Source: an uncultured Bacteroidales bacterium
GTDB taxonomy: Bacteria; Bacteroidota; Bacteroidia; Bacteroidales; Paludibacteraceae
Assembly: GCA_946617165.1 (NCBI GenBank)
Contig: CAMOJP010000012.1
Coordinates: 1 to 37,094, forward strand
Direction of reading: 5' to 3'
Length of the DNA: 37,094 nucleotides
Shown: positions 2,247-36,672 of the stretch, piece after piece
Position numbering within the stretch: position 1 is the first letter of the stretch
How the letters are laid out: each line of letters opens with the position of its first letter
Notes under the pieces: generated by a model
Databases searched by the model: none
What the model saw: only the letters and a program-made list of their open reading frames with translations
Told to the model about the DNA's origin: nothing
Position numbers and translations under genes: made by a program

Positions 2247-4811
2247 ATGCAAGTAAAAGTAAGTGAAGTAAATCAACCAGCGTGGCATGAGATGATTATC
2301 CATGCCAATCTGCCTGAGAACTTGAAGAAACTGCAGGAAATCGCATACAACCTGTGGTGGGTGTGGAATTCCGATGCGAAGAATTTATTCCGCGACATTG
2401 ACATCGAAGCCTGGCATCGTGCTCAATCCAATCCTGTACAACTGCTCAATATCATCAGTTTTGAGCGTATGACAGAACTGAGCAACGACAAGACTTTTAT
2501 GAAGAAACTGGACGATGTCTATGCTGCCTTCCGCGCCTATATGGATGAACCGCGTGACACGAAAAAACCTTCTATTGCTTATTTCTCTATGGAATATGGG
2601 TTGACCCATGTCCTTAAAATCTATAGTGGCGGTCTGGGAATCTTGGCAGGCGACTACCTCAAAGAGGCGTCCGACTGCAATGTGGATATGACCGCTATCG
2701 GCTTCCTCTATCGTTATGGCTATTTCACACAGACCCTTTCTCCCGAAGGACAGCAGATTGCCAATTACGAGGCTCAAAACTTCCAGAACTTGCCTATGGA
2801 GCAAGTGAAGAACGCCGACGGAACACCGATGGTTATTGATGTTCCCTATCCGGATCGTTTCGTACACGCCTATCTGTGGCGCGTAGCTGTTGGACGTATC
2901 AGCCTCTATCTGCTTGATACCGATAATGAACTTAACAGCGAATGGGACCGCTCTATCACCCACCAGCTCTATGGCGGTGACTGGGAAAACCGTATCAAAC
3001 AGGAGATTCTGCTCGGTATCGGAGGTACACTCGCACTTAAGAAACTGGGTATCAAGAAGGACGTGTACCACTGCAACGAGGGGCACGCCGCACTCATGGG
3101 ACTGCAACGTCTTGTGGATTATGTACAAGAGGAAGGACTGACCTTTGACGAGGCTAAAGAAGTGGTACGCGCAAGCGGCCTGTACACATGCCATACTCCT
3201 GTACCTGCAGGCCACGACTACTTCGAGGAAGGCTTGTTCTACAAATATATGAGCGAGTATCCGGCTAAGTTAGGTATCGAATGGGATGACCTGATTGGCT
3301 TGGGACGTCAGAACCCGGAAGATAAAAGCGAGAAGTTCTCTATGTCTGTCTTTGCTCTCAATACCTGCCAGGAAGCGAACGGCGTATCGTGGCTACATGG
3401 CGAAGTGAGCAAGAAAATGTTCGCGCCTGTATGGCCCGGATACTTCCCGGAAGAACTGCATGTGGATTACGTAACGAACGGCGTTCATATGCCTACATGG
3501 GCAGCATCAGAGTGGAAAACCGTGTATAACGCTAAATTCCCGCAAGGTTGGTGGAAAGACCAGTCAAACCTCAATATGTGGAAAGCCTATAACGATATCC
3601 CGGACGAGGAGATTTGGGCTACCCGTATGCAACTCAAACAGAAACTTATTGACTATATCAAAGTGCAGTTCCGCGAGGACTGGATGAAGAGCCAGGGGGA
3701 TCCCGCACGTATCGTTCGCGCACTCAACGAAATGAATGCCAATACCCTCATTATCGGTTTCGGTCGTCGTTTCGCAACCTACAAACGTGCCCATCTGCTC
3801 TTTACGGATCTGGAGCGCTTGGATAAACTGGTTAATAACCCGAACTATCCCGTTCAGTTCCTGTTCACCGGTAAAGCTCACCCGGCTGATGGCGCAGGAC
3901 AAGGACTTATCAAACGTATTATTGAGATTAGCCGTATGCCGCAGTTCTTAGGTAAGATTATCTTCCTTGAGAACTATGATATGCGCTTGGCTAAACGTCT
4001 GGTGAGCGGTGTGGATATATGGCTCAATACACCAACCCGTCCGCTTGAGGCTTCCGGTACATCCGGCGAAAAAGCACAGATGAACGGAGTATTGAACTTC
4101 TCCGTACTGGACGGTTGGTGGCTGGAAGGTTACGTGGAAGGTGCAGGTTGGGCTTTGACCGACAAACGTACCTACGAGAATCAGGCTCACCAAGACCAAT
4201 TGGATGCCGCTACAATCTATCAGATGCTCGAGAGCGAAATCATTCCGATGTACTACTCCAAGAACGCTAAAGGCTACTCGCCGCAATGGGTTCAGACAAT
4301 TAAGAACTCCGTCACCAAAATCACTCCGCGCTTTACCACAAAGCGTATGATGGACGACTATTTTGCCAAATTCTACAACAAACTGGCTAAACGTCACGCT
4401 ATGCTTGAGGCGGACAACTTCAAGAAAGCAAAAGAACTGGCTGCTTGGAAAGAAGATGTGGCTTCCAAGTGGGACAAGATCGAAGTTATCAAAGCGGGTT
4501 ATAGCGATGTATATAATCAGCCAAATGTCGGCGACACACTCGGCTTCCAGGCAGAGATTGATATCAAAGACATCCAGGATAAGAACAGTATCGGAGTTGA
4601 GTTGGTTGCTATCCGCACCTCTCTCCACAACAACGACAAACTCTATGCGACCAAACCGCTTAAACTCGTTAAAGTGGAAGGAAGTCACCTGTTCTTTGAA
4701 TTGCCGTATCAGCTCAACTATGCCGGCGGTATGAAATTCGCTATGCGTATGTATCCGCAGCATGAACTGCTGCCGCATCGGATGGACTTCGCATACGTTC
4801 GTTGGATGTAA
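2247..4811 (+). CDS. glgP: Alpha-glucan (glycogen/maltodextrin) phosphorylase family protein
   Basis: 854-aa ORF with AYFSMEYGLTHVLKIYSGGLGILAGDYLKEASD, FGRRFATYKRAHLL, FTGKAHPADGAGQGLIKRI and NTPTRPLEASGTSGEKAQMNGVLNFSVLDGWW, characteristic of the alpha-glucan phosphorylase family. Confidence 0.93.
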   Translation: MQVKVSEVNQPAWHEMIIHANLPENLKKLQEIAYNLWWVWNSDAKNLFRDIDIEAWHRAQSNPVQLLNIISFERMTELSNDKTFMKKLDDVYAAFRAYMDEPRDTKKPSIAYFSMEYGLTHVLKIYSGGLGILAGDYLKEASDCNVDMTAIGFLYRYGYFTQTLSPEGQQIANYEAQNFQNLPMEQVKNADGTPMVIDVPYPDRFVHAYLWRVAVGRISLYLLDTDNELNSEWDRSITHQLYGGDWENRIKQEILLGIGGTLALKKLGIKKDVYHCNEGHAALMGLQRLVDYVQEEGLTFDEAKEVVRASGLYTCHTPVPAGHDYFEEGLFYKYMSEYPAKLGIEWDDLIGLGRQNPEDKSEKFSMSVFALNTCQEANGVSWLHGEVSKKMFAPVWPGYFPEELHVDYVTNGVHMPTWAASEWKTVYNAKFPQGWWKDQSNLNMWKAYNDIPDEEIWATRMQLKQKLIDYIKVQFREDWMKSQGDPARIVRALNEMNANTLIIGFGRRFATYKRAHLLFTDLERLDKLVNNPNYPVQFLFTGKAHPADGAGQGLIKRIIEISRMPQFLGKIIFLENYDMRLAKRLVSGVDIWLNTPTRPLEASGTSGEKAQMNGVLNFSVLDGWWLEGYVEGAGWALTDKRTYENQAHQDQLDAATIYQMLESEIIPMYYSKNAKGYSPQWVQTIKNSVTKITPRFTTKRMMDDYFAKFYNKLAKRHAMLEADNFKKAKELAAWKEDVASKWDKIEVIKAGYSDVYNQPNVGDTLGFQAEIDIKDIQDKNSIGVELVAIRTSLHNNDKLYATKPLKLVKVEGSHLFFELPYQLNYAGGMKFAMRMYPQHELLPHRMDFAYVRWM

Positions 4812-4835: not shown

Positions 4836-6023
4836 ATGAACAAGAGATTAACATTAGTAATAGCAACCGCTATTTGTGCGTGCAACCTCTTCGCTCAGAC
4901 GCTTTACGACGCTATGGGACCGGTTCCCATAGCGGTATGTAAAGTGGCTCCTCTGCCCAAAGCACAAGCTGAGGCTAAAGCGCAGTTAGAAAAAGAAAAA
5001 GCACGCAAACTCATCAAACAAGGGATGTCTATCCCCGCTGTGGATGCCAAAGTGTTAGCCAGTAAAAACAAGTATGTTACGAACGGTAACGGTGTCTATC
5101 GCCTCACGCTTGATCCGAAAGGAGTGACCGTCAAACTGCCTGTTTATACCATTAAAAACACCTCTCACGGACAAGAGGGCGTGAAAAGCGGTAACGAGAA
5201 GTTTAACGTCAAGAAAGACCGTATCTCAAGTGCTGTCATTTCCGGCGGACAATACATCCAAATCGTTAACCGCAACGATAAGAAATGTAATATGGACGAG
5301 TTCATCTTTGAGGCGGATAACAAGGCTGTCAAGATGAATGGCAATAAGATTGAACTCCAAGTCCCCGTACTCCATATCGCTGCCGGAATGTATCCGTCTG
5401 ACTATAAAATCACATGTATCCATGAACCGTCCGCAGCGAAGTATATCTTCGACTTGCACATGGACTGGCGTGAGGAGATCTCCTGCAGCGGTGCTGATGG
5501 CGCGTATAGCTTTGATGTGTTCCCGAGCGACACCTTCCCGGATTTGGCACTCATGTGCAATCTCAATAGTAAAGAACTCGAAGTGGTCAGACTGCCGTTT
5601 ACGTTTGCTGCAGATGGGTACGCCGGCTCGGATGGACGCCGGGGCGTGAATGGCGCGAACGGAAAGAACGAATCGGAATATACCGATAGTGACGGTAAAA
5701 AACACTATATCAAAGGTACTTGCGGCAAGCCCGGAGAGGATGGCCACCCGGGCTCAGACGGTACCGATGGAGGTACGTTCCTTTTCTGCGTGAGTGATGC
5801 TCTGCTTAACAGCTTCGGATTGGAAGCCGTCTCAGCCACTGTTGATGGCGGCAAAGGCGGTAAAGGAGGTGCCGGAGGCAAAGGGGGAAGACACGGCGAA
5901 GGAAGCGGATGCTCCGGTAAGGCGGCTGACGGGAAAACAGGTGCTAACGGTAAAGACGGTAAAAGAGGAGACTTCCTTTACCTGATAACGGATGTTAACG
6001 AATTCTATTACTCAATACCCTAA
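4836..6023 (+). CDS. Secreted protein with C-terminal collagen-like glycine repeats
   Basis: 395-aa ORF with signal peptide MNKRLTLVIATAICACNLFAQ. Gly-X-Y-like tracts: GYAGSDGRRGVNGANGKN, GKPGEDGHPGSDGTDGG, GGKGGKGGAGGKGGRHGEG and GKTGANGKDGKRGD. Confidence 0.75.
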   Translation: MNKRLTLVIATAICACNLFAQTLYDAMGPVPIAVCKVAPLPKAQAEAKAQLEKEKARKLIKQGMSIPAVDAKVLASKNKYVTNGNGVYRLTLDPKGVTVKLPVYTIKNTSHGQEGVKSGNEKFNVKKDRISSAVISGGQYIQIVNRNDKKCNMDEFIFEADNKAVKMNGNKIELQVPVLHIAAGMYPSDYKITCIHEPSAAKYIFDLHMDWREEISCSGADGAYSFDVFPSDTFPDLALMCNLNSKELEVVRLPFTFAADGYAGSDGRRGVNGANGKNESEYTDSDGKKHYIKGTCGKPGEDGHPGSDGTDGGTFLFCVSDALLNSFGLEAVSATVDGGKGGKGGAGGKGGRHGEGSGCSGKAADGKTGANGKDGKRGDFLYLITDVNEFYYSIP

Positions 6024-6026
6024 GAT

Positions 6027-7340
6027 ATGAAAAGACTGTTTATTATATCAATAAGTGCTATCTTTGCGGTAGTGAGTTGGGCGCAGACGAATAATATCAA
6101 TACACCCTATTATCGTAATGCGCTTACCAGTATGATGATTTATCATCCCGAAGACGAATTCGGATATGATGTATATAAGATATTCTCACACCTCCCTGCG
6201 TTGGAGAAGTTTGATAATCACGACGTCGACCTGCGTGTAATAAATAACGATGCCGTAACCGGTGTGCAAGGTAAGGACAAAGGCTTCCATCGCCAGCAAT
6301 ATGGTGGCAGTATGGTGCTTACGGCTGCCGAGAAAAACAAAAATGCCGTCGTTATAGAGAAACTGCTCAACGATGCCCAGATGGGTAAGCGTATGGTAGC
6401 TAAGTGGTTTAACCTGCAGGGGAACTCCGTTGACTCTGCCACCTTCTCCACCAAAGTGCTCGAGAGCCGCTCGGATTATAACGTAACTATTTCTGAAGCC
6501 ATTATGGCGCGCTATACGACGGAAGGCATTAACGTGCTGCAGACTGTAAGCAACGACCTGATTGAGCACTCGTTCATTTTGGTGAGCGACATGACCTATA
6601 TCACGGCTGAGCAGCGCGCTGAGGTGGGTAAGAAAGTGCTTGCAGGGCTCGGAGAGGTCTTCGATGCGGTGTTTACAGGTTCTAACTTAGGAGACCACGC
6701 AGCTCGACTTGGGGAGGAGATAGCGGACAGCTTTACAGGATTTAAGGTGATGACGCATAGTTATCTCTTCCAGTTGGAATGGAACGACAGTATATCGAAT
6801 ATCTTCTATACGAAATACTATACCCAGACTCCTAATCCCGAGCGTATAAAGGCATTCCTTGCCGACAAATCGCTCTTTAAAGTGAAATACCTCGGAGCAG
6901 AGTCGTCGGTATATGAGAAGACGCAAAAGAAAGGCAAATATACCCGCACGGGCTTGCTCGAACTCATTACACGCCGCTCAATTGATAAGAATATTGCCGA
7001 GTTACAAAGCCAGTATGAAGCTTTCCGTATCAAAACACCTATAATGGGAGCGGAGTACAATAATAAAGGTAAACTATTAGGCTATCGGGCCTTGGTGGGA
7101 CAAAAAGAAGGCGTGAGCGAAGGACGTAAATACGAGGTCATCGAAACCGTTATTGATGCCAAAGGGCGTGTCAGGTACAATCGCGTAGCTACCATCAAAC
7201 CGGTGACTAACCAAATTTGGGATAACCGATTCAATGCCCTGCTGGAGAATGATGTGGACGGTACAGAGGGAACTCTGTTTACAGTAGTGAGCTCTGTCAA
7301 ACAGATTCAACCCGGTATGTTAATCAGAGAACAAAAATAA
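6027..7340 (+). CDS. Secreted protein of unknown function
   Basis: 437-aa ORF with signal peptide MKRLFIISISAIFAVVSWAQ; 3-bp gap to the upstream gene. Confidence 0.75.
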   Translation: MKRLFIISISAIFAVVSWAQTNNINTPYYRNALTSMMIYHPEDEFGYDVYKIFSHLPALEKFDNHDVDLRVINNDAVTGVQGKDKGFHRQQYGGSMVLTAAEKNKNAVVIEKLLNDAQMGKRMVAKWFNLQGNSVDSATFSTKVLESRSDYNVTISEAIMARYTTEGINVLQTVSNDLIEHSFILVSDMTYITAEQRAEVGKKVLAGLGEVFDAVFTGSNLGDHAARLGEEIADSFTGFKVMTHSYLFQLEWNDSISNIFYTKYYTQTPNPERIKAFLADKSLFKVKYLGAESSVYEKTQKKGKYTRTGLLELITRRSIDKNIAELQSQYEAFRIKTPIMGAEYNNKGKLLGYRALVGQKEGVSEGRKYEVIETVIDAKGRVRYNRVATIKPVTNQIWDNRFNALLENDVDGTEGTLFTVVSSVKQIQPGMLIREQK

Positions 7341-7359
7341 CCTATAAAAACAATCAGTT

Positions 7360-8769
7360 ATGAGAAAGATTCTTACTCTACTTGCAGTCGCATTGTGTAT
7401 ATTCGGTGCTTCTGCCCAACAGAAGAAAGCAGACAAACAAACGGCTCAGTGGCGTTACGAAATCCAACCTGTAATAGGTGAAGCCGCGCAAGGGTCTGCA
7501 TTGGTTCGTGTTTGGACCTATTCCAAAAGCAACAAAGTGGCTGTTTCCCAAGCCGCTAAAAACGCTGTTCACGGTATCATGTTCATGGGCTATCCCGCTT
7601 CTAATGACGGAACACGTATTGTAGGACGTGAGCCGATTATTGCTGACCCTGCTATCGAAGAAGCTAACGCCGAGTACTTCGAACAGTTCTTCAAAGAGGG
7701 GGGCGCATACCAACGTTATGTGTCCTTCGTGAATAATGGAGTCCCTGACCAAATCCTTAAAGTAAACAAAGAGTACAAGATCGGCATCACTGTTGTTGTC
7801 CTTGTTGACCAACTTCGTGAGCGCCTTGAAGCCGACGGCATCATCGCAACAACAGCTACCGTACAAGGTAAAATGCCTACCGTAATGATCGTCCCGAGCA
7901 AAGTGTATTGTAATAATCACAAATGCTTGAAAACCTACAATAACCAGGGCGTAACCGAATATATAGCAGATTATGACAAAGCCTTGCTGGATAACGAACT
8001 TAATCAGGCTATCACAGCACTCAACGCCCGCCTTACCTCTCGCGGTTTCGAGGTGAAGAACCTTAGTTCGGCTCTCGCAACGCTGAAAACCGAGAAGGCG
8101 GAGAACGCTGTCATGATGAGCATTGAAGGTGGGGCTTCCGTTGCCGAGACACCGATTGATGTGTTACGCCGCGTGGCGCAGGCTGATATCTGGATTGAGA
8201 TTAACTGGACGGAGAACGTAATCAAAGGCGGAAGTGAGAAAACACTCACTTTCTCGATGAGCGCCATCGACGCTTATACCGACTTCGTAGTAGGTGGTAT
8301 TCCTCCTACCACAAGCCATAACTCCTATAGCAGCAATTTCAACATCCCCCTGATGATTGAGTCCGCTATACAAGGGCAGTTCGATCCGTTCTGCAACACG
8401 ATGGTTGATTATTTCAAGACCCTCGCTGCCAAAGGACGTGCTATCAAAGTACGTGTACTGTGCTGGGACGATTGGGATGGCAACCTCATGGAAGAATACG
8501 ACGGCGACGAACTCAATGAAATCATTGAGGATTGGCTCGCTGATAACACTGTCAAAGGTAAGTTCGGCGCACCGAGCATCAGCCCATCAGGAAAAATGAT
8601 GACTATCGAACAAGTGCGTATGCCGCTTACAGATAATAAGGGTCGCGACAATGACCCGCGTCGTTGGGCTCGTGGACTGAGAACCAAACTTAAAGACGAC
8701 TATTCTATTCCTGCTAATATCTCTACTAAGGGATTAGGCGAACTGTTAATTGTTGTTGGTAGTAAATAA
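7360..8769 (+). CDS. Secreted DUF6175-like protein with an additional N-terminal domain
   Basis: 469-aa ORF with signal peptide MRKILTLLAVALCIFGASAQ. The C-terminal part (VMIVPSKVYCN... EYDGDELNEIIEDWLADNTVKG... EQVRMPLTDNKGRDNDPRRWARGLR) resembles the DUF6175 family from memory; not searched. Confidence 0.7.
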   Translation: MRKILTLLAVALCIFGASAQQKKADKQTAQWRYEIQPVIGEAAQGSALVRVWTYSKSNKVAVSQAAKNAVHGIMFMGYPASNDGTRIVGREPIIADPAIEEANAEYFEQFFKEGGAYQRYVSFVNNGVPDQILKVNKEYKIGITVVVLVDQLRERLEADGIIATTATVQGKMPTVMIVPSKVYCNNHKCLKTYNNQGVTEYIADYDKALLDNELNQAITALNARLTSRGFEVKNLSSALATLKTEKAENAVMMSIEGGASVAETPIDVLRRVAQADIWIEINWTENVIKGGSEKTLTFSMSAIDAYTDFVVGGIPPTTSHNSYSSNFNIPLMIESAIQGQFDPFCNTMVDYFKTLAAKGRAIKVRVLCWDDWDGNLMEEYDGDELNEIIEDWLADNTVKGKFGAPSISPSGKMMTIEQVRMPLTDNKGRDNDPRRWARGLRTKLKDDYSIPANISTKGLGELLIVVGSK

Positions 8770-8777
8770 TTGAACCT

Positions 8778-9332
8778 ATGAAAACGAAATCTTTAGTCAT
8801 CCTTACTCTTTGTTGCTTGCTCCTTGCTCCTTGCATGGCGCAAAATGACAACCAGAAACTCTACGAGATTATTCCGCTGACACCGTATATTTCGGCCGAG
8901 ACCAATATGGCACCGGACGCTGAAGCTCTCTTACTCAACCGAATGCGGCAGGCTGCACTCAAAAACGGATTGAGCGCAATGGAAAATCAAGTGTATGTGC
9001 TTACTTCTTCCGTCAACGTGATTGACAAACAACTCACAGCTTCCGTTCCCCAAAATTGGGTAGTGGAGGTGGAAGTGCATTTCTTTATAGGTAATGGCGT
9101 CGATGGAACATTATATGCTTCCACAGCTATCACACGCAAAGGGGTTGCTGCATCCGAACAAAAAGCATATCTGAATGCTATCAAGGCTATTTCGGCGAAC
9201 GATAAAGCCTTCAAACCTTTCTTCAACAAAGGTAAACAGCGTATTATCGAAGAACTCCTCGCGCAACCGGAACCACAACAGCCCACCGAGGATCAACCGC
9301 AACCGGATTATAACGTAAATAATTGGCAATAA
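8778..9332 (+). CDS. Small secreted protein, unknown (possibly CsgG/FlgT-like N-terminal fold)
   Basis: 184-aa ORF with signal peptide MKTKSLVILTLCCLLLAPCMAQ; 8-bp gap from the upstream gene and 1-bp gap to the next. Confidence 0.65.
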   Translation: MKTKSLVILTLCCLLLAPCMAQNDNQKLYEIIPLTPYISAETNMAPDAEALLLNRMRQAALKNGLSAMENQVYVLTSSVNVIDKQLTASVPQNWVVEVEVHFFIGNGVDGTLYASTAITRKGVAASEQKAYLNAIKAISANDKAFKPFFNKGKQRIIEELLAQPEPQQPTEDQPQPDYNVNNWQ

Positions 9333-9333
9333 T

Positions 9334-10260
9334 ATGAAAACTAAGTCTATTATTATTCTTGCTCTTAGCGCCCTCTTCGTACTGCCTGCCTTCGCGGGGG
9401 GAGAGAAAGTGGTCGACAAGTCCGGCAAACAACCTAAATGGGTGTACTCAGCCGGCACGGACTTTATCGTCGTTTCCGCTGAGGCTGCTGATATTGAAAC
9501 GGCTAAGGACAAAGCCATGATCCAGGTCAAAAAGCAAATCCTTGCCGCTATCGCTGAGAACGTTCAATCATCTTCATCTATTGATACAAAAGAAAAGGGC
9601 GTGAATGGGAAGTATAATATCCTCGAGGAGTATAATAACCTCGTGGAGACTCAAAGTGCGCTTATCCCCTTCCTTAGCGAAGTCAGTGTGTCAAGGGTGG
9701 AGGATTACTATTGGGAGAAACTAAAACGTGGGAAAGACTATTGCTATCGGTACCATATCAAGTATCCCTTCGACCGATTTGACCTCATGCGTCTCTCGGA
9801 CGATTTTCTCACTCGTGAGCGTGAAATCAATCAGCAGATTGCAGACTTTACTAAGGATAACTTCACGTCCTATACCTCCACGGAGCAAATGGTTCAGCGA
9901 CTCAAAGAGGTGCGACTGCTCCGAGCTTCACTCATGGAGAAAGATGCTCGACGTGCTACCTGCCAGAATATAGAAAAAGTCTATAACGGCTATCTTAAAT
10001 CTATAACGATCAGACTGCTCTCTGTTAATAAGCAGCAACTCGTTTATGCGCCTTATTTCGGCGAAAAGCAACTCTCTTCGACTCTGCAACCAAAACTGGA
10101 GTCGAATTGTCTGTCTGACTTGCAGTTCGTACCTAACAACGGCAAGTGCGTCGTTACATACGATTACGAAACATCGTGTTATGACGGCGAAGAAAATAAC
10201 CTCGTTATTACATTGAATATCGAGGGAAACAAAGTAAAAAATACCTTCATGGTAAAATAA
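9334..10260 (+). CDS. Secreted LPP20/FlgT-N-like protein
   Basis: 308-aa ORF with signal peptide MKTKSIIILALSALFVLPAFAGG, then KQPKWVYSAGTDFIVVSAEAADIETAKDKAMIQVKKQILAAIAENV, similar in pattern to LPP20/FlgT N-terminal domains. Confidence 0.65.
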   Translation: MKTKSIIILALSALFVLPAFAGGEKVVDKSGKQPKWVYSAGTDFIVVSAEAADIETAKDKAMIQVKKQILAAIAENVQSSSSIDTKEKGVNGKYNILEEYNNLVETQSALIPFLSEVSVSRVEDYYWEKLKRGKDYCYRYHIKYPFDRFDLMRLSDDFLTREREINQQIADFTKDNFTSYTSTEQMVQRLKEVRLLRASLMEKDARRATCQNIEKVYNGYLKSITIRLLSVNKQQLVYAPYFGEKQLSSTLQPKLESNCLSDLQFVPNNGKCVVTYDYETSCYDGEENNLVITLNIEGNKVKNTFMVK

Positions 10261-10289
10261 AATCATTATTAACTTAAATTATTCCTTTT

Positions 10290-10862
10290 ATGAAAAAAGT
10301 ACTTTTAATCATGGCAGCTGCATTGGTTATGGTTAGCTGCGGTTCAAAGAAAGTCGCTCCTACTAAAGGTGAAGTAGAAGTAAACGTACCTTGCAAAGAG
10401 TTCAAAACTGACAAAAAGACCCTTCGCGCTAACGGTAATGCTATCTCGCCTAACATGCAGAACGCTACTGACAAAGCTTTAGCTGCTGCTCGTCGTGAAA
10501 TGGCTACATCAGTGGAGTCTCTCGTTAAACGTGTCGTTGAGACATATGCTTCTTCTTACGACCTCGATAACGCTGCTGACTTCCGTAGCAAAATGCAAGA
10601 CATGGCGCGTATCGTTACTAACCAAACGCTCCGCGGTTCGGTTCCTGTATGCGACAAAGTGACCAAAGTAGAGAACAAAGATGGCGTAATGTATCACGCT
10701 TATGTAGCTCTCGAACTCACTTCTAACGAGTACATCGAAGCTCTCACACAAGAGACCAACAAACGTATCTCTAACGACGAGAAACTGCGCACCGATTTCG
10801 AACTTGAGAAATTCAAGAAAGTATTCGAAGAGGAAATGGCTTCTTTCGCGGAAGGTAAGTAA
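10290..10862 (+). CDS. LPP20-like lipoprotein
   Basis: 190-aa ORF with lipobox MKKVLLIMAAALVMVSCGSKK and an Ala-rich LRANGNAISPNMQNATDKALAAARREMATSVESLVKRVVE helix resembling LPP20-type proteins. Confidence 0.68.
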   Translation: MKKVLLIMAAALVMVSCGSKKVAPTKGEVEVNVPCKEFKTDKKTLRANGNAISPNMQNATDKALAAARREMATSVESLVKRVVETYASSYDLDNAADFRSKMQDMARIVTNQTLRGSVPVCDKVTKVENKDGVMYHAYVALELTSNEYIEALTQETNKRISNDEKLRTDFELEKFKKVFEEEMASFAEGK

Positions 10863-10900
10863 TTATATCTTACTGTTGTAAGAAAATAATTCCTAACGAG

Positions 10901-10931
10901 TAAGTGTCGCTCACGTAGCGGCACTTATTTT
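10901..10931 (+). terminator. Rho-independent terminator ending the secreted-gene cluster
   Basis: TAAGTGTCGCT-CACGT-AGCGGCACTTA stem-loop (11-bp stem with one G:U) followed by TTTTG. Confidence 0.75.
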
Positions 10932-10942
10932 GTCTGTATCCC

Positions 10943-10981
10943 ACCGACCGATGACCGACCGATGACCGAGAGATGACCGAC
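10943..10981 (+). repeat. Short tandem repeat, 11-bp unit ACCGACCGATG
   Basis: ACCGACCGATG x2, ACCGAGAGATG, then a partial ACCGAC. Confidence 0.85.
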
Positions 10982-11012
10982 ACAAGAAAATCGCGCAAAT
11001 CACATAAAATAT

Positions 11013-11043
11013 TTGCACAATTCTAAAAAAAGCAGTACCTTTG
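11013..11043 (+). promoter_or_regulatory. Bacteroidota promoter for the TPM-LemA pair
   Basis: TTG (11013-11015), 20-bp spacer, TACCTTTG (11036-11043). Confidence 0.7.
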
Positions 11044-11063
11044 CAGCGTAAATGGTAACGATT

Positions 11064-12332
11064 ATGAAAAAACTATCTCAATTTATTACTTTATTAAGCC
11101 TTATTCTCCTGCCAATTTACGCACAAGCAGTGGATTATATGCCACAAACCGTTCCTAATCCTAAAACCTACGGACAGGACTTTTATGTCTCTAATCCGGA
11201 TCGTGTATTATTCAATGTGACGGATACGCTCCTCAATCAAAAGCTGAAAGAGCTGCAACTTAATACTGGTGTCGAAATGGCGGTTGTTGCGATTGACGGA
11301 TACAATGAAAATAAATATCTCATTGCCCGGGATTTTGCAATAGATTTGTTTAACTATTGGGGGATTGGAGATAAAGATAAAAATACAGGTCTCCTGCTAT
11401 TCCTTGCCCAGAGAAGTCGTGAAATTGAAATCATTACCGGTAGTGGTATCGAAGGAATTATGACCGATGCTGTCTGTGGGAAAATATTAGATGATGCCAT
11501 CCCGCTCCTTAGAGTAGACAATTTCGATTCTGCTATCCAGTGGATTACCGGTGATATATATAATTACCTCATGGAGCCCGATAACAGGATGGAACTCTTA
11601 TCCGGCAAACGACCGGCTAATCCCCAAGATGCGCAAGACACAGCAAATTACTTTATCATTGGCTTTTTATTGATGATTGTATTTGCGTTCATAGCATACA
11701 AACGACTTAATGGTAAACCGGGACAACCTAAGGAAGAAATTCAAAAGCTGGCACAGCCCGCGCAAACCAGCCTCGGATGTCTGGCGTTTATTTTCCCTAT
11801 ACCCCTGCTCTTCTTCTATCTCTACTATCGATATGCGAGAAAGCATGTTAAAATGACACCGCCTAAATGTGAAAAATGCGGACATGATATGGACATGTTG
11901 CCCGAAGAACAAATGTTGGCTATGATGGACAAAACACAACAGGTGGAGAATGAAATCCAAAGCAGATCCTTTAGTGCATGGAGATGTCCTGATTGCGGAG
12001 AAGAACAACTGCTTATCAATAAGGGAGATAAGGGAAAAGTATATGGTATATGCCCAACCTGTGGGGCTAAAGCCTACAAATTGACGGCGCAAAAAGTGCT
12101 TATCGCTCCTACTTATACCCATGGCGGAGAAAGAGAAGAAGCTTACTTATGCGCTTGCTGCGGACATGAGGAACTAAAAAAAGTCAACCTTCCCATTAAG
12201 CAAAGAAGTAGTTATTCAAGTGGAAGTTCCTCATCTTCAAGCTATAGAGGTGGGGGATATGGACGATCTTCTTCCTCTGGTTCCTGGGGGGGAGGACACT
12301 CCTCAGGAGGCGGAGCAGGAAGACGATTCTGA
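11064..12332 (+). CDS. TPM-domain (YgcG-like) membrane protein with zinc-ribbon and Ser/Gly-rich tail
   Basis: ORF 11052..12332, with the start preferred at 11064 (MKKLSQFITLLSLILLPIYAQA signal peptide). TPM motif region LNTGVEMAVVAIDGY...GIGDKDKNTGLLLFLAQRSREIEIITGSGIEGIMTD, CxxC pairs, and terminal GGGHSSGGGAGRRF. Confidence 0.87.
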   Translation: MKKLSQFITLLSLILLPIYAQAVDYMPQTVPNPKTYGQDFYVSNPDRVLFNVTDTLLNQKLKELQLNTGVEMAVVAIDGYNENKYLIARDFAIDLFNYWGIGDKDKNTGLLLFLAQRSREIEIITGSGIEGIMTDAVCGKILDDAIPLLRVDNFDSAIQWITGDIYNYLMEPDNRMELLSGKRPANPQDAQDTANYFIIGFLLMIVFAFIAYKRLNGKPGQPKEEIQKLAQPAQTSLGCLAFIFPIPLLFFYLYYRYARKHVKMTPPKCEKCGHDMDMLPEEQMLAMMDKTQQVENEIQSRSFSAWRCPDCGEEQLLINKGDKGKVYGICPTCGAKAYKLTAQKVLIAPTYTHGGEREEAYLCACCGHEELKKVNLPIKQRSSYSSGSSSSSSYRGGGYGRSSSSGSWGGGHSSGGGAGRRF

Positions 12333-12368
12333 ATGTAACTAATATTAACTAACTAAATATTACCTATT

Positions 12369-12959
12369 ATGAACAAATCAGTTTTGACTACTATTGTAGT
12401 GATTGCCGTGCTCGGCATCATCGTTGTATGGATGATGGGACGTTACAACGCCATGGTTACCATGCAAGAAAATGTGGAAAATGCTTGGGGACAAGTGGAA
12501 AACCAGTATCAACGTCGTATTGATCTCATCCCTAACCTCGTATCTACCGTTAAGGGATACGCTAAGCACGAACAAGAAACCTACACCAGTGTAATGGAAG
12601 CTCGGGCTAAAGCAACACAAATCACCATTGACCCTACTAATGCTACTCCCGAACAACTCGCCGCTTACCAGAATGCACAAGGAGAACTCTCACAAGCTCT
12701 CGGACGACTCCTCGCAGTCGCTGAAAACTATCCCGAATTGAAGGCTAACGAACACTTCTCACAGTTGATTGACCAACTGGAAGGAACCGAGAACCGTATC
12801 ACTTTTGCGCGCAACACCTTTAACGATGCGGCTAAAGAGTATAATACCTATATCCGTCAGTTCCCGTCCAATATCATAGCATCTATGTTCGGCTTCGAGC
12901 GTAAACCGTACTTCCAAGCGGAAGAAGGTGCCAACAAAGCTCCTAAGGTAGAATTCTAA
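12369..12959 (+). CDS. lemA: LemA family protein
   Basis: 196-aa ORF with N-terminal TM, YNAMVTMQENVENAWGQVENQYQRRIDLIPNLVSTVKGYAKHEQ, ENRITFARNTFNDAAKEYNTYIRQFPSNIIASMFGF; classic LemA. Confidence 0.95.
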   Translation: MNKSVLTTIVVIAVLGIIVVWMMGRYNAMVTMQENVENAWGQVENQYQRRIDLIPNLVSTVKGYAKHEQETYTSVMEARAKATQITIDPTNATPEQLAAYQNAQGELSQALGRLLAVAENYPELKANEHFSQLIDQLEGTENRITFARNTFNDAAKEYNTYIRQFPSNIIASMFGFERKPYFQAEEGANKAPKVEF

Positions 12960-13909
12960 TGGGAAGAATGAAGCAGAGCAAGGTATTCTTGCTCCGACTG
13001 ACCCGGGGTGGGGTGAAACTCGGCTTTGCTGAGTAATCCTAAGGCCCACAAATCCATAATAGTGCTATACCCGCTACGGGCAATGATATGCTCAGCGCCG
13101 TATAGCACTTCTTTTAGTGCTTCATCGTCTAAAGACGGCACTAAGGTGATGTTCTTATGAGTTAGCCGTATATTCGGCTCGCCTGTCTTACCGCGCACAA
13201 TCAGTACGCGCTTCGCGCTGTCGCTGTAGCGGTTGACAAGATCATGCTCAAAGAGACTGCGCTGAGGCTCCAAACCCGACAGCATTGCCACAATATCATA
13301 ATCACTCTTCACCCTTTCACACTTTAATCTCTCACCCTTTAACGCAAATCTGGACAACGGACCTATATATTTTACGCGTGCGTCCACGCGCGCAGGATGG
13401 CCGAGTGCACCGGATAATAACTCACCCGTCTTGTTATCAGGCACCCATATCTCATCGTAATGGGTATATAAACGGGCATGTACACGGTCGGCTAAGGGCT
13501 CTAACCACTGCCAACCGTGGGGAAGGCATATATGTAACTGATGGGTCATGTAAATACTGTGGCATTTGGAACTGTAAACACCGAAACAGTTATCCGATAG
13601 AATCACATCTATACACATCGCTTGTACAATCTGCTCCACGCGCTTGCGGTTACCTCCGTAGAAACGAATAAATGCAGGTAGCGAACGCAGCATAGCACCC
13701 ACCTGACTCGTGCCGTAACTGTATCGCAACTGCAGTGGAGCTAATTCAACCGACGTCAGTTCGGGAAAATGCTTGCGTAGTAACTGTAGGGACGAGCCTG
13801 TACCACCCAAAATAACATCAGCACCTTCATTCAGGTACTGACGTATAAGGGGAATACAGCGCGTGGCGTGACCTAATCCCCAATTCAGTGGAGCAATCAG
13901 TATTCTCAT
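12956..13909 (-). CDS. Glycosyltransferase-like protein (MJ1255/UDP-GlcNAc-transferase-like fold)
   Basis: 317-aa ORF: MRILIAPLNWGLGHATRCIPLIRQYLNEGADVILGGTGSS... and C-terminal GAEHIIARSGYSTIMDLWALG. Confidence 0.78.
   Translation of the reverse strand: MRILIAPLNWGLGHATRCIPLIRQYLNEGADVILGGTGSSLQLLRKHFPELTSVELAPLQLRYSYGTSQVGAMLRSLPAFIRFYGGNRKRVEQIVQAMCIDVILSDNCFGVYSSKCHSIYMTHQLHICLPHGWQWLEPLADRVHARLYTHYDEIWVPDNKTGELLSGALGHPARVDARVKYIGPLSRFALKGERLKCERVKSDYDIVAMLSGLEPQRSLFEHDLVNRYSDSAKRVLIVRGKTGEPNIRLTHKNITLVPSLDDEALKEVLYGAEHIIARSGYSTIMDLWALGLLSKAEFHPTPGQSEQEYLALLHSSH
13301..13344 (-). repeat. Degenerate heptamer tract inside the glycosyltransferase gene
   Basis: Minus strand units TTAAAGG GTGAGAG ATTAAAG TGTGAAA GGGTGAA GAGTGAT, encoding the KGERLKCERVKSD segment. 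Confidence 0.6.
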
Positions 13910-14676
13910 GCACTTACAATAACATCATAACCCTTCGCACGTAGTGGAGCGGCAATAGACTCCATCTTGTCACGACTGATCTTCTCTAATGTCTCACAGG
14001 GCGTCTTGCGGTCGATGATGTATATCATGATTTGCTTGGGGTGCAATATATCTACGGCTTTGTACCATGCCGCTAACTCCTCTGAGGTGGTATTGTCTAT
14101 TGCTGATTCACCGTCTCCGTCAGGCACTACACCGCGTACAAAACACGTCTGCAAAGTGAAATCCCCCTCAAAGTGTTGCAGCCGTTCTATAATGGTAGAT
14201 ACCGTCAGCGATGCATTAGTCGGACGGTCTATCAGGCGCATGGTGCGGTCTATTGCACTGTCTAATTTCATAATGCGGTTGTCGCATCGCTTGAGGGCAC
14301 GGAACACATCCTCGCGATACACTTGCGTCGAGTTACTAAGTACACTGACTTTCGCTTGGGGACAATATTGGTCGCGCAGACGGCAAGTATCTTCTATGAT
14401 GCCCTCAAAATCAGGATGCATCGTCGGCTCGCCGTTGCCGCTGAAGGTCAGCACGTCCGGTAACTGAATAAGTCCTTGTAGGGTGTGCTCTAAAGATTTC
14501 CGCACATCCTCTCGGGACGGCAGACGGGGATGACTCACTGGACGGTTCCAGCCTATCTCGCAGTACACACAGTCGAAACTGCATAATTTATGGTCCGTAG
14601 GCATCAGATTAATACCTAACGACACCCCTAAGCGCCGAGAATGAATAGGACCATATACAATACTCTCAAATAGCAT
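13906..14676 (-). CDS. Radical SAM protein
   Basis: 256-aa ORF with CSFDCVYCEIGW (CxxxCxxC), YGPIHSRRLGVSLGINLMP and TFSGNGEPTMHPDF. Confidence 0.88.
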   Translation of the reverse strand: MLFESIVYGPIHSRRLGVSLGINLMPTDHKLCSFDCVYCEIGWNRPVSHPRLPSREDVRKSLEHTLQGLIQLPDVLTFSGNGEPTMHPDFEGIIEDTCRLRDQYCPQAKVSVLSNSTQVYREDVFRALKRCDNRIMKLDSAIDRTMRLIDRPTNASLTVSTIIERLQHFEGDFTLQTCFVRGVVPDGDGESAIDNTTSEELAAWYKAVDILHPKQIMIYIIDRKTPCETLEKISRDKMESIAAPLRAKGYDVIVSA

Positions 14677-14677
14677 C

Positions 14678-16714
14678 TTATAACGTAATAACCCGATTAC
14701 CTAACTGCTTGCAGATAGTGTTCTTTATCTCTAATAACGCAGGTTGTGTGCTTAATAACTGGCTCAGAAGCTCAAAGTCGTTATCGGCTTCTGCCTGACG
14801 TATCATCTTGCCTAATTGCTCAATACGTTGGTTAACAATCGTGAATTTGAGCTCTAACAGAAGCTGAGGTACTAACTCGGCTAACTTATCCTCATCTGTC
14901 TGGACCTTTACGGAGCGGGTGATATTCTCCGATACGTTCTGTTTGGTGTAGATACTGCTCAGTTGATATTTGTCTGCAATCAGGTCTATCGCTAACTGCA
15001 TGACCTCCGGGTCCGGGTGGAACTTAAAGAAACGCTCAGCTGCAAAGCCGGGCTCTTTCTCATGACCGAGAAACTCGGCAATCACTTTCTGATAGAGCGC
15101 ATTAGGAGCCTCAATGGCGTCCTCTTGCAGCGTCTGTATAATATAGTCGCCTACATTGATATACTGGTCTCCTTCTAATTGATAGAGCGGCCTCTCACCA
15201 TAGCGGATTATCACCTGCAACAGGTTACGATAATTCTCGTCTAACTTGCTACCGGCTACTCCGTCACTTGTTGCTCTTTCCCCCTTCACCCTGTCGTCCC
15301 TGACGCCTTCGTCTTTTACTTCCTCTGCAATCTTGCGGGCGCGCTCATTCTCCTCTTCTTTTTGACGGGACTCGGTGCCTTCAATGGCTTTCTCGCGACG
15401 CTTGAAGCCTACCTCACGGGTAAGCAGTTGCTCTTGGATATGAAGTAGGTCCGAGCAGTCTTTGATATATACTTGCCGGGTGATACTGTCCGGTATATGG
15501 GAAATCGATTCTACGATATCCTTTATCAAATCTGCACGCTTCTGGGGATCATTGGCGGCTTCCTTTTGAAGCAGTTGTGCCTTAAAGCGGATAAAGTCCA
15601 CTTGGTGGTCTTTGATATACTGTATGAACTCGTCGGCGTTATGGCTGTTAGCAAAGGAATCAGGGTCCTCACCCTCCGGTAACAGCACAATCTTTACATT
15701 AAAGCCTGCTTCGAGAAACATGTCTATGCCTCGTAACGCAGCATGAATACCGGCGGCGTCACCGTCGTACAGTTCTATGATATTGTTCGTGAAACGCTGA
15801 ATGAGTTTAATCTGAGGCTTGGTCAATGCCGTCCCGCCGTTTGCCACTACGTTCTCTATTCCTGCTTGGTGCATGGATATAACATCCATCTGCCCCTCTA
15901 CAATATAGCATAAGTTCTCGCGCACAATAGCGGACTTGGCTAAATAGATACCGTATAACTCATTCGTCTTGGAGTAGATAATCGAGTCCGGAGAGTTAAC
16001 GTACTTGCCTACGTTATCTTTCTTCTTCAATATACGTCCCGCAAAGGCTACAGGTTTACCCGATACCGTATGGATAGGGAACATCACACGGTCGCGGAAC
16101 CGGTCATAAACACGACCGTCATCCGCTTTGCCGCACAGACCCGTTCCTAACTTGGTGTCCACATCGTTGACTACGTATTTCTCTACAAACCCTTTCTTCT
16201 TCAGCGCTGCGGCTAACAGATTACCTTTCTCCGGAGAATAGCCTAACTGGAACTTGTGTATGATATCATCTCTCAGTCCGCGGTGACGGAAATAGCTCAA
16301 GCCGATTGCCTTACCTTCCTCCGTCTCCCATAACTGCTCCTGGAACCATTTGTTGGCGAACTCATTGACTACGAACATCGACTCGCGGTCATCCTGACGC
16401 TGTTGCTCCTCGGCGGTGAGTTCTTTCTCTTGGACCTCAATATGATATTTCTTGGCGACTTGTTTGACGGCCTCCGCAAATCCGCATTGCTCAATCTCCA
16501 TCACAAAACCTATTGCGTTGCCCGCTTTACCGCAACCGAAACATTTGTACAGGCTCTTGCTCGGGGACACAGTAAAAGAACCGGTCTTCTCCGTATGGAA
16601 CGGGCATAGACCGATATAGTTGGCGCCGCGACGCTTCAGCTTCACGTAATCGCCGACGACTTCTTCTATCTTTGCCGCTGCAAAAACCCTATCTATTGTC
16701 TCGCGGGGTATCAT
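14678..16714 (-). CDS. dnaG: DNA primase
   Basis: 678-aa ORF with N-terminal zinc-binding YIGLCPFHTEKTGSFTVSPSKSLYKCFGCGKAGNAIGFVM, TOPRIM VEGQMDVISMHQAGIENVVANGGTAL and ELYDGDAAG. Confidence 0.96.
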   Translation of the reverse strand: MIPRETIDRVFAAAKIEEVVGDYVKLKRRGANYIGLCPFHTEKTGSFTVSPSKSLYKCFGCGKAGNAIGFVMEIEQCGFAEAVKQVAKKYHIEVQEKELTAEEQQRQDDRESMFVVNEFANKWFQEQLWETEEGKAIGLSYFRHRGLRDDIIHKFQLGYSPEKGNLLAAALKKKGFVEKYVVNDVDTKLGTGLCGKADDGRVYDRFRDRVMFPIHTVSGKPVAFAGRILKKKDNVGKYVNSPDSIIYSKTNELYGIYLAKSAIVRENLCYIVEGQMDVISMHQAGIENVVANGGTALTKPQIKLIQRFTNNIIELYDGDAAGIHAALRGIDMFLEAGFNVKIVLLPEGEDPDSFANSHNADEFIQYIKDHQVDFIRFKAQLLQKEAANDPQKRADLIKDIVESISHIPDSITRQVYIKDCSDLLHIQEQLLTREVGFKRREKAIEGTESRQKEEENERARKIAEEVKDEGVRDDRVKGERATSDGVAGSKLDENYRNLLQVIIRYGERPLYQLEGDQYINVGDYIIQTLQEDAIEAPNALYQKVIAEFLGHEKEPGFAAERFFKFHPDPEVMQLAIDLIADKYQLSSIYTKQNVSENITRSVKVQTDEDKLAELVPQLLLELKFTIVNQRIEQLGKMIRQAEADNDFELLSQLLSTQPALLEIKNTICKQLGNRVITL
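15256..15330 (-). repeat. Degenerate purine-rich heptamer-like tract inside dnaG
   Basis: Minus strand GACGAAG GCGTCAG GGACGAC AGGGTGA AGGGGGA AAGAGCA ACAAGTG, encoding EVKDEGVRDDRVKGERATSDG. Confidence 0.5.
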
Positions 16715-34060: not shown

Positions 34061-34381
34061 ATGTATGAATTTGAGCAAATATCATCTGTAGAATTGATGG
34101 CGCAATTGGCACAACGATTACAGAGTCGCCGATTGGAGAAAGGCTTGTCTCGGCGGGCATTGGCGGACTTGTCCGGTGTGCCGGCGCCAACTATCGCGCG
34201 ATTTGAGCAGCATTATGCGATATCGATGCGTCAGTATGTGGATTTGGCGCTCGCGTTAGGATATACCGACCAGTTAACAATGCTCATGAAGGAGCCGATT
34301 TATAAGACGATGGAGGAATTGGAGACCATACGGCAAAATAAGGGTAGAAAACGAGGCAGGAATGAAGGTACTAAGGGATGA
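34061..34381 (+). CDS. HTH (XRE/HipB-like) antitoxin/regulator, module 2
   Basis: 106-aa ORF: LAQRLQSRRLEKGLSRRALADLSGVPAPTIARFEQHYAISMRQYVDLALALGY. 4-bp overlap with the next gene. Confidence 0.84.
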   Translation: MYEFEQISSVELMAQLAQRLQSRRLEKGLSRRALADLSGVPAPTIARFEQHYAISMRQYVDLALALGYTDQLTMLMKEPIYKTMEELETIRQNKGRKRGRNEGTKG

Positions 34382-35502
34382 GTGAGTTAAGGAACATAAA
34401 TAAACTAAATGTGAAATACCACGGTCAAATGGTAGGCTCGCTGATGATGTCGCCGGATAATGAGACGGCAGTGTTTTGCTATGATGACGAATGGCTGGCA
34501 ACAGGTTTTTCGATCTCTCCGTTGGAACTTCCATTGGAGAGGAAATTGTTTATTGCGCCCCGCACTCCCTTCTATGGTAATTTCGGTATTTTCGAGGATA
34601 GTCTTCCGGATGGATATGGGCGGTATCTCTTAAACCGTATCCTGAAGAAAGAAGGTATAGATGATTTCAACCTTACGCCCTTGCAACGTTTGGCTATAGT
34701 CGGTTCTGCCGGTATGGGCGCACTATGTTACGAACCGGCGCAAGGTCTGATTAAGGATGCTATTCTTCCTGAATTGGATGAACTGCAGCAGTTGGCATTG
34801 GATGTGCTCTCGGAGAAACAGACGGAAGGGGCAGACGTGCTCTATTTTAACAGTGGTAACTCCGGCGGTTGCCGACCCAAGTGTCTGATGCGCGAGGATG
34901 GTAAGGACTGGTTGGTGAAATTCCGCCATACGTATGATCCTATGGATATAGGTAAGCAAGAGTACCGATATATGATGCTGGCGGAGCGATGCGGAATCGA
35001 GATTCCCGAGTGTCGGCTGATAAAGGGGAAGTATTTCGCCTCCCGGCGTTTTGATATAGCTGCGAATGGAGAGCGTCTCCATGTTGCTACAGCTGCGGCT
35101 ATATTGTCAGAATCCATTAATCCTCCTCGAGCGGATTATAAGACCTTGCTGAGTTTGACCGGCTGGTTGACGCAATCCCCCGGGCAAGTGGAGCAGATGT
35201 TTCGCAGAATGGTATTCAATGTATTGATACAGAACAAGGATGACCATGCTAAGAACTTCTCCTTCGTCTGGCAGAACGGAACCTGGTGTTTGGCTCCTGC
35301 TTACGATCTTCTTCCTTACCCGGAAGGCTATCATGGCCAGCATGCTACGTCCGTGATGGGCAAAGGACTTCCGAACGAGGAAGACATGATTGCAGCCGGC
35401 GAAACGATACGTATCCCCGCGCGCCGCGCACGCTTAATAATAGAGGAGATAAAAACAAAGATAACAGATTCATCTAACCCCTTAACCCCTCTAACCCCCT
35501 AA
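34378..35502 (+). CDS. HipA-like serine/threonine kinase, module 2
   Basis: 374-aa ORF with GNFGIFEDSLPDGYGRYLLNRIL, NSGNSGGCRPKCLM, WLVKFRH, IQNKDDHAKNFSFV and LAPAYDLLPYPEG. Confidence 0.9.
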   Translation: MSELRNINKLNVKYHGQMVGSLMMSPDNETAVFCYDDEWLATGFSISPLELPLERKLFIAPRTPFYGNFGIFEDSLPDGYGRYLLNRILKKEGIDDFNLTPLQRLAIVGSAGMGALCYEPAQGLIKDAILPELDELQQLALDVLSEKQTEGADVLYFNSGNSGGCRPKCLMREDGKDWLVKFRHTYDPMDIGKQEYRYMMLAERCGIEIPECRLIKGKYFASRRFDIAANGERLHVATAAAILSESINPPRADYKTLLSLTGWLTQSPGQVEQMFRRMVFNVLIQNKDDHAKNFSFVWQNGTWCLAPAYDLLPYPEGYHGQHATSVMGKGLPNEEDMIAAGETIRIPARRARLIIEEIKTKITDSSNPLTPLTP

Positions 35503-35520
35503 CCCCCTAACCCCCAACCC
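35478..35520 (+). repeat. TAACCCC(C) tandem repeat; complementary strand is a G-quadruplex-type G-run array
   Basis: CCCCTTAACCCCTCTAACCCCCTAACCCCCTAACCCCCAACCC; six C runs of 3-5, mostly TAA-spaced. Confidence 0.8.
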
Positions 35521-36672
35521 ATGCTCCTATCTGACCACATATTTACGCCTAATCTGCGCTACGAAGCGCATCAGATGATTTACACCAAGGCGGGAGACGA
35601 GCCAATCGTGCTGACCGGTGTTCTTGGAGCAGCCGTGCTGGCGGCGTTGCTCGTTGATACAGATGAGGGCAACGCGCGCGGCATAGCTATCGATACGGAT
35701 GACGAGCGTCAGGCTTGGATTGTCCAATACGAACGCGAAGTAAGGCGCGACGACTGGGGATATCTTCACGCCGAGGTAGAGCAACTGAGCGACTCCTATG
35801 TTCAGTTGGCTTCCGGCGAGGTGCAACTTTCGGATATCTGTCCGAATATTCGGCTGCATGACTTGGCGCTGCAGTTGCTGGATATGTATATGAATCACCT
35901 TGTTCGCGAGACTTTTGGTGCGCATATCTGGGAGGCGGTGCCATGGCGCATGCCGTTTGCCCAATGGCTATGGGACGCCTCGCAGGTGGAGGGGCGGCGG
36001 CAAACCTTCCTTCATACCGACTGGACGCATGCTCCGCAGGTCTATGCCTTAGCCGAGTCAATAGACGAGGATAGTTCGCGCTCTTGGACGTTTGAGGGCG
36101 AACAGGCGGCAGACCTCATGGAGCAGTATGTACAATGGTTAGACGAGCAGTATGCGCTTATGAAGGGCGAACAGCCCGGAACGAAAATCACTCAAGCTGA
36201 CCGCAATTTCATCTTCGAGCAAGAGAGCAATTGGGCTTTCTTGTCCGAAGCCGTTGCGTCATTAGACTCGTCAGCGCTGAAAGAGTGGCAGCAGTGGAAG
36301 GACGCCTGGACTAAGTATATTCAGGTCCGCCTTAAACCGCAGCAAGACATTCGTTTCTGGGAGGACGAAGTGCCTGAGCATGTGCAATCCCGCCTGCTTG
36401 ATTATCTCCGCGAACAGGAGAGCAAGAAGAACCATTTCTACGCGCTGACCGCTACTATATATGCCTTGCGTCAGACCGGCTATATCCGCCGTAAACTGAC
36501 TGATAGCGCTATGCGGACATGGCTCAGCGACCATCTAACTATTGATTATACCTTGCGCCCCAACGCCTCGCAGTTCCAGCGTGCCATGAAGGAGCATGGT
36601 CGTTACACGCCGGAAGTGCGAAAGGCTGCTTTTTACCTAAAAGCGCTGGGTTTCCCGCCACTGAGAACTTAA
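35521..36672 (+). CDS. Uncharacterised protein downstream of HipA-like kinase
   Basis: 383-aa ORF, 18 bp after the kinase stop on the same strand; acidic, Trp-rich; no family recognised. Confidence 0.7.
   Translation: MLLSDHIFTPNLRYEAHQMIYTKAGDEPIVLTGVLGAAVLAALLVDTDEGNARGIAIDTDDERQAWIVQYEREVRRDDWGYLHAEVEQLSDSYVQLASGEVQLSDICPNIRLHDLALQLLDMYMNHLVRETFGAHIWEAVPWRMPFAQWLWDASQVEGRRQTFLHTDWTHAPQVYALAESIDEDSSRSWTFEGEQAADLMEQYVQWLDEQYALMKGEQPGTKITQADRNFIFEQESNWAFLSEAVASLDSSALKEWQQWKDAWTKYIQVRLKPQQDIRFWEDEVPEHVQSRLLDYLREQESKKNHFYALTATIYALRQTGYIRRKLTDSAMRTWLSDHLTIDYTLRPNASQFQRAMKEHGRYTPEVRKAAFYLKALGFPPLRT

Follow-up and report, generated by a model that had tools for sequence, protein, structure and literature searches.

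What could six adjacent genes for secreted proteins build together? The question is raised by positions 4836 to 10862 of contig CAMOJP010000012.1 (assembly GCA_946617165.1), where an uncultured rumen bacterium of the Paludibacteraceae (order Bacteroidales) carries six consecutive genes on the plus strand, here called gene 1 to gene 6. The window that was analysed is a stretch of 37,094 nucleotides of this contig, and the source genome comprises 1.6 Mb and is about 80% complete. Our analysis somewhat favours the reading that the six genes are transcribed as a single unit and encode a periplasmic ring or disc complex, which would be attached to the outer membrane and would use the fold families of the H-ring (FlgO, FlgP and FlgT; PMC7990780, PMC6375700), CsgG and PelC without a flagellum. 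Of the interpretation given in an earlier note on this DNA, the conserved and apparently undescribed envelope set with folds of the LPP20, FlgT and CsgG kind was borne out, whereas the collagen-like exported cargo was not.

The six open reading frames follow each other in the same direction with gaps of 3, 19, 8, 1 and 29 bp, exactly as had been described. Each product has an export signal, also in line with the earlier note: type-I-like signal peptides were recognised by eye in the products of genes 1 to 5 and a lipobox in that of gene 6. The strong hairpin reported behind the last gene lies at 10898 to 10930 on the plus strand, ~35 nt past gene 6, and has a 14-bp stem followed by UUUU (z = -2.8 in an RNA fold of positions 10863 to 10990). 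It is a probable intrinsic terminator of the operon; the consensus terminator scan of the window did not list it. Immediately past this hairpin, the 11-bp tandem repeat ACCGACCGATG occupies positions 10943 to 10981 in 3.5 copies. When the six genes were compared with their orthologues in RUG437 (L044), mainly synonymous differences were found (proportion of synonymous differences, pS, 0.50-0.81; of non-synonymous differences, pN, 0.04-0.18). Since pS is far above pN, the six are real coding genes under purifying selection.

The conservation of the unit was followed in relatives from the Paludibacteraceae and Bacteroidales, mainly of the ruminant gut. The 80 comparison loci were chosen by gene-3 patterns, and further samples independent of the neighbours were therefore examined. 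Gene order, on which the earlier note had made its proposal depend, was kept among the relatives. Besides the window, six Paludibacteraceae genomes (L043 to L048) have the complete order from gene 1 to gene 6, and the same unit without gene 4 was found in L049, L059 and L061. In L050 and L052-L057 the genes were rearranged to 5-1-2-3-4, usually with a 226-amino-acid (aa) relative of gene 6 in front. The neighbours beyond the unit vary, with glgP in front in L043-L045 and LemA in front in L046-L048, and these changes mark its borders. In the window, the 854-aa glgP-like gene (2247-4811) stops only 24 bp before gene 1, so the operon transcript could start upstream; as a neighbour this gene is retained only among the closest relatives (L043-L045).

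The centre of the operon (genes 2, 3 and 4) was found across the Bacteroidota, where gene 3 is often divided among two or three genes. The core found in Flavobacterium, Salegentibacter and other members of the phylum consists of gene 2, one or two genes for the N-terminal part of gene 3, a DUF6175 gene and gene 4. Because its parts are separate genes there, as the N-terminal part and DUF6175 are in Flavobacteria, gene 3 of the window is a fusion. The operon is patchy across the Bacteroidota, and the cluster in the window is one of its local forms; DUF6175 itself was present in 12 of 299 genomes of the phylum. In one relative with a larger genome (L153, positions 9600-14751), the core operon converges with a second set, in which a homologue of gene 6 occurs together with further secreted proteins and a protein judged by eye to be of the LPP20 type.

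Gene 3 (7360-8769; 469 aa) consists of an N-terminal domain (about residues 30-160) and DUF6175 (171-466). Its assignment to DUF6175 in the earlier note was right, with a match to PF19672 far above the cut-off (280 bits against 23, E 2.5e-83, model positions 1-292 of 293). We know of no described function for this family. An AlphaFold2 model from 83 sequences reached a predicted local distance difference test score (pLDDT) of 92, and its best match in the PDB was CsgG (4uv2, E 5e-4, probability 1.00, template-modelling (TM) score 0.3-0.4 of the target). GNA1162 and PelC followed with TM-scores of up to 0.59 of the target, and PqiC with weaker E-values. The modelled N-terminal part has the order strand-helix-(insert)-strand-strand-helix and, judged by this secondary structure, resembles the SHS2/LPP20 topology. 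An SHS2-like fold is common to FlgP, Lpp20 and FlgT, and ring formation occurs in that family (PMC12222027).

Gene 2 (6027-7340; 437 aa) had been listed as unrecognised, which holds at the sequence level, whereas its fold appears FlgT-like. Its AlphaFold2 model (62 sequences, pLDDT 87, predicted TM-score 0.85) was compared with the PDB by Foldseek. The best matches were FlgT (3w1e) at E 8.8e-7 and, at E 1.2e-6, chain 0 of the LPHT ring (8z5n). They span the whole chain with a probability of 1.00, and no other match was below E 0.04. Sequence-profile searches against the PDB gave nothing convincing for genes 1, 2, 3 and 4. Solitary paralogues of gene 2 were also seen in L149, L150 and L151, each beside a secreted protein of ~310-390 aa that appears DUF4412-like by eye.

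Two LPP20/FlgT-like proteins had been proposed at the end of the cluster. Genes 5 and 6 are indeed LPP20-like, and the FlgT-like protein is that of gene 2. The profile of gene 6 (10290-10862; 190 aa) matched the solved LPP20 of Helicobacter pylori (5ok8, E 1.9e-4, positions 2-121), and a weak LpoB match was also obtained. The lipobox of gene 6 reads VMVSC/GSKK, and a lipobox-like motif was present in 25 of the 30 short members of its family. Gene 5 (9334-10260; 308 aa) is linked to LPP20 through gene 6: its N-terminal half, which precedes a C-terminal domain of ~120 aa, matched gene 6 at 3e-7 when the profiles had no common members, with an alignment partly in the signal peptide, and at 7e-35 after iteration. 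In a profile-profile comparison of the six families only genes 5 and 6 were related; a pairing of genes 1 and 4 was given a probability of 55%, and the other apparent matches lay mostly in signal peptides. Single-sequence searches of the PDB with genes 5 and 6 gave no matches. An alpha-actinin match of gene 5 (E 6e-4, residues 153-238) looked like generic helical similarity and was set aside.

The Pfam family LPP20 (PF02169) was matched by neither gene 5 nor gene 6 of the window and weakly by 5 of 21 members of the gene-6 family. A search of the source genome gave 0 matches, though the control genomes gave none either. The positional counterparts in L034, L135 and L137 exceeded the cut-off. 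Relatives from other classes carry, behind a fused gene 3, a gene for a protein of 440-480 aa with an LPP20-like stretch at its start; those of L135 and L137 were the two scanned. A gene-2-like protein is encoded immediately upstream in L135 and at a distance of ~5 kb in L138. L034, from the same genus as the window, has a trio of an LpoB/gene-2-type protein, a DUF6175-like protein and the LPP20 protein. From these cases in other classes and in L034, the association between DUF6175 and LPP20 probably has an early origin. Gene 4 (8778-9332; 184 aa) is a short form of its family, which in other Bacteroidota usually carries a C-terminal tail like tetratricopeptide repeats (TPR) and a YNxxW-type end motif.

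Could the unit be an export system? DUF6175 would then be a CsgG-like outer-membrane pore or a PelC-like periplasmic collar under a barrel, and the protein of gene 1 or a polysaccharide would be exported. The closeness of the DUF6175 model to CsgG and PelC is consistent with this, as are the outer-membrane barrel genes that flank the operon in Flavobacteria and the position of gene 1 immediately upstream of gene 2 in all 18 gene-1-bearing loci counted. However, at the position of the CsgG membrane hairpin, strands 277-288 and 293-304 of gene 3 are joined in our reading of the model by a loop of few residues, so that no long hairpin of the CsgG type is visible. Within the CsgG fold, DUF6175 appears closer to the members that form no pore. 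CsgF was not found in nine genomes, no polysaccharide synthase was seen beside the unit, and gene 1 is missing from most operons and occurred in only 2 of 28 sampled genera. We therefore regard export as unlikely.

Gene 1 (4836-6023; 395 aa) encodes a secreted protein whose N-terminal domain is followed by a C-terminal domain rich in Gly-X-X, and the label collagen-like covers no more than this glycine periodicity. The glycine region has four runs of ~5-7 triplets and, over ~125 residues, 2-7 prolines. Of 23 homologues, 22 keep this length and have the same motifs on either side. No collagen family was matched by any of 17 gene-1 members, and PF01391 was not found in gene 1 of the window. The collagen reading was rejected on these grounds. 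Because the repeat number is constant, a collagen fibre is less likely than a folded Gly-rich domain, possibly a polyglycine-II bundle, judging from general knowledge of such folds. With a constant and proline-poor glycine region, a gene missing in most relatives and a DUF6175 nearer to the non-pore members of the CsgG fold, the idea of a collagen-like exported cargo was not borne out. A Gly-rich domain related to gene 1 also ends proteins with apparent WG-type repeats (by eye) in L147, L148 and L152, and in L148 this fusion sits upstream of a core operon.

A link to the outer membrane was seen in other lineages. In nine Flavobacterium-type loci a beta-barrel gene lies 0-86 bp upstream of gene 2 (149 bp for one copy of gene 2), and that of L112 matched OMP_b-brl_2 with E 5e-25. 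In five other loci a DUF3575-type barrel gene starts 26-61 bp past gene 4. The C-terminal tails of long gene-2 variants matched outer-membrane barrel families in 5 of 9 cases, the best at 3e-6. The flagellar rod family PF00460 was present in none of 15 carrier genomes, and 4 of 14 control genomes were positive. Since no rod family was found in these genomes and no CsgF in nine, the unit belongs neither to the flagellum nor to curli as known.

In the window the cluster is followed by genes for a TPM-domain protein with a zinc-ribbon-like region (11052-12332) and for LemA (12369-12959), and in L046-L048 the same pair stands before gene 1. These neighbours hint at an envelope-stress context. The unit might then tune peptidoglycan or outer-membrane maintenance through periplasmic lipoproteins of the LPP20/LpoB type and TolB-like folds. 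Such a role would fit the TPM and LemA genes adjoining the cluster in the window, L043 and L046-L048, the SPFH-like and zinc-ribbon genes adjoining it in L052-L058, and weak LpoB matches in accessory proteins of L034 and L141 and for gene 6. But these neighbours are limited to subsets of one family and absent elsewhere, and the probable terminator separates TPM and LemA from gene 6, which makes a stress unit rather improbable. The zinc-ribbon and SPFH-like genes of L052-L058 precede the rearranged operon, and zinc-ribbon proteins are also encoded upstream in L062-L066.

The Rfam scan of the window gave no match to a non-coding RNA. An anti-phage defence system was rejected, with PADLOC returning only a weak match of SspB to gene 5 (E 0.006, 14 bits). 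Far from the cluster, ~6 copies of the tandem repeat CTAACCCC lie at 35473-35520, between the reading frames 34378-35502 and 35521-36672.

The association of the genes was also counted. In 81 DUF6175 loci, gene 2 lay at most 2.6 kb upstream in 75 and gene 4 directly downstream in 69. Among the best 30 DUF6175 loci of the family, chosen regardless of neighbours, the N-terminal part of gene 3 adjoined in 28 and gene 4 in most. DUF6175 was found in 65 of 150 family genomes and gene 2 in 55, all of which also carried DUF6175 (hypergeometric 4e-31, a value that overstates the significance because the species are not independent). In the family genomes 51 of 61 gene-2 loci lay within 6 kb of a DUF6175, and gene 5 was present in 13 of the 150, all among the 65 DUF6175 carriers. 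That unrelated secreted genes stand together by chance or general co-regulation is very improbable: the composition does differ between lineages in genes 1, 5 and 6, and in G103 and G107 the pair of genes 1 and 2 stands apart from genes 3 and 4, but every gene-2 genome of this sample has DUF6175, the order is kept across classes, genes separate elsewhere are fused, and the folds have a common theme.

Several observations weigh against a ring complex of the H-ring and CsgG kind. The gene 2 model superimposes on the FlgT structures with TM-scores of only 0.2-0.27 and a root-mean-square deviation of ~14, and no FlgT Pfam match was found in any protein of the window, gene 2 included; nor was FlgT one of the 25 Pfam families listed for the 62 members of the gene-2 family. 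Because the TM-scores are low, its domain composition appears to agree with FlgT better than its domain arrangement does. The alignments of gene 3 to CsgG and PelC are local, with low whole-chain TM-scores (0.3-0.55 of the target) and large deviations, and the CsgG family PF03783 was matched neither by gene 3 nor in the source genome. Domains may thus match known folds while their arrangement differs. Folds of the LPP20, FlgT and CsgG types are widespread, and a fold alone does not prove ring formation. Genes 1, 5 and 6 are missing in most relatives of the operon. The barrel tails of gene 2 are all below the Pfam cut-offs, and in the window gene 2 has no such tail and the unit no barrel gene.

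In the favoured ring or disc complex, the lipoprotein of gene 6 and the protein of gene 5 would lie under the outer membrane, on its inner face, as a layer of the LPP20 type, with gene 2 as a FlgT-like linker there. Gene 3 would provide a ring subunit of the CsgG/PelC type without membrane hairpins, and gene 4 an accessory subunit that bears TPR arms elsewhere in the phylum. Gene 1 may add a lineage-specific Gly-rich module, periplasmic or at the surface, that partners gene 2. Such a complex would probably have a structural role: it could anchor a surface component, or stabilise or gate a site in the outer membrane. That it is itself a secretion pore is less probable. More tentatively, we consider it possible that the Bacteroidota have an outer-membrane ring machine, neither flagellar nor curli, that has an outer-membrane barrel and its own subunits resembling FlgT, CsgG/PelC and LPP20. 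The H-ring parts list would there serve another surface structure.

FlgO, FlgP and FlgT are usually regarded as accessories of the flagellum, and LPP20-type rings as a speciality of polar motors. If our reading is true, the same fold set occurs without flagella, and the use of this outer-membrane ring toolkit extends beyond the flagellum. DUF6175 and several unannotated families would also gain a first mechanistic hypothesis, which could be tested in culturable, genetically tractable relatives from Flavobacterium. In the open-access literature, with subscription papers and most preprints outside the search, we found no description of the operon, no paper naming DUF6175 and nothing that links the LPP20 family to a Bacteroidetes operon or a CsgG-like lipoprotein to Bacteroidetes. 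The gene set, whose order recurs in relatives, is apparently undescribed, as had been supposed.

How does the cluster compare with known systems? With bacterial collagen-like proteins, gene 1 shares short runs with glycine at every third residue, and it differs in having only four of them, few prolines, a constant length and no collagen Pfam match. The C-terminal part of gene 3 is a clear member of DUF6175; in the window it is joined to an N-terminal domain, for which most distant relatives have a separate gene. The ring lipoproteins CsgG, PelC and GNA1162 are the best PDB matches of its model, but gene 3 has a type-I-like signal and no lipobox, shows no evident membrane hairpin of the CsgG type and contains an additional C-terminal region, and the genomes examined lack the CsgF of curli. 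From the Vibrio H-ring of FlgO, FlgP and FlgT and the FlgP basal disc of Campylobacter, the cluster differs in that no flagellum was detected, gene 2 has no sequence-level FlgT match, gene 3 is fused, Gly-rich and TPR-family members are added, and an outer-membrane barrel belongs to the unit in some lineages. It shares with them a gene 2 that is FlgT-like by fold search, the LPP20/FlgP-like genes 5 and 6, the CsgG-type fold in gene 3, and linked genes for secreted products with one lipoprotein among them.

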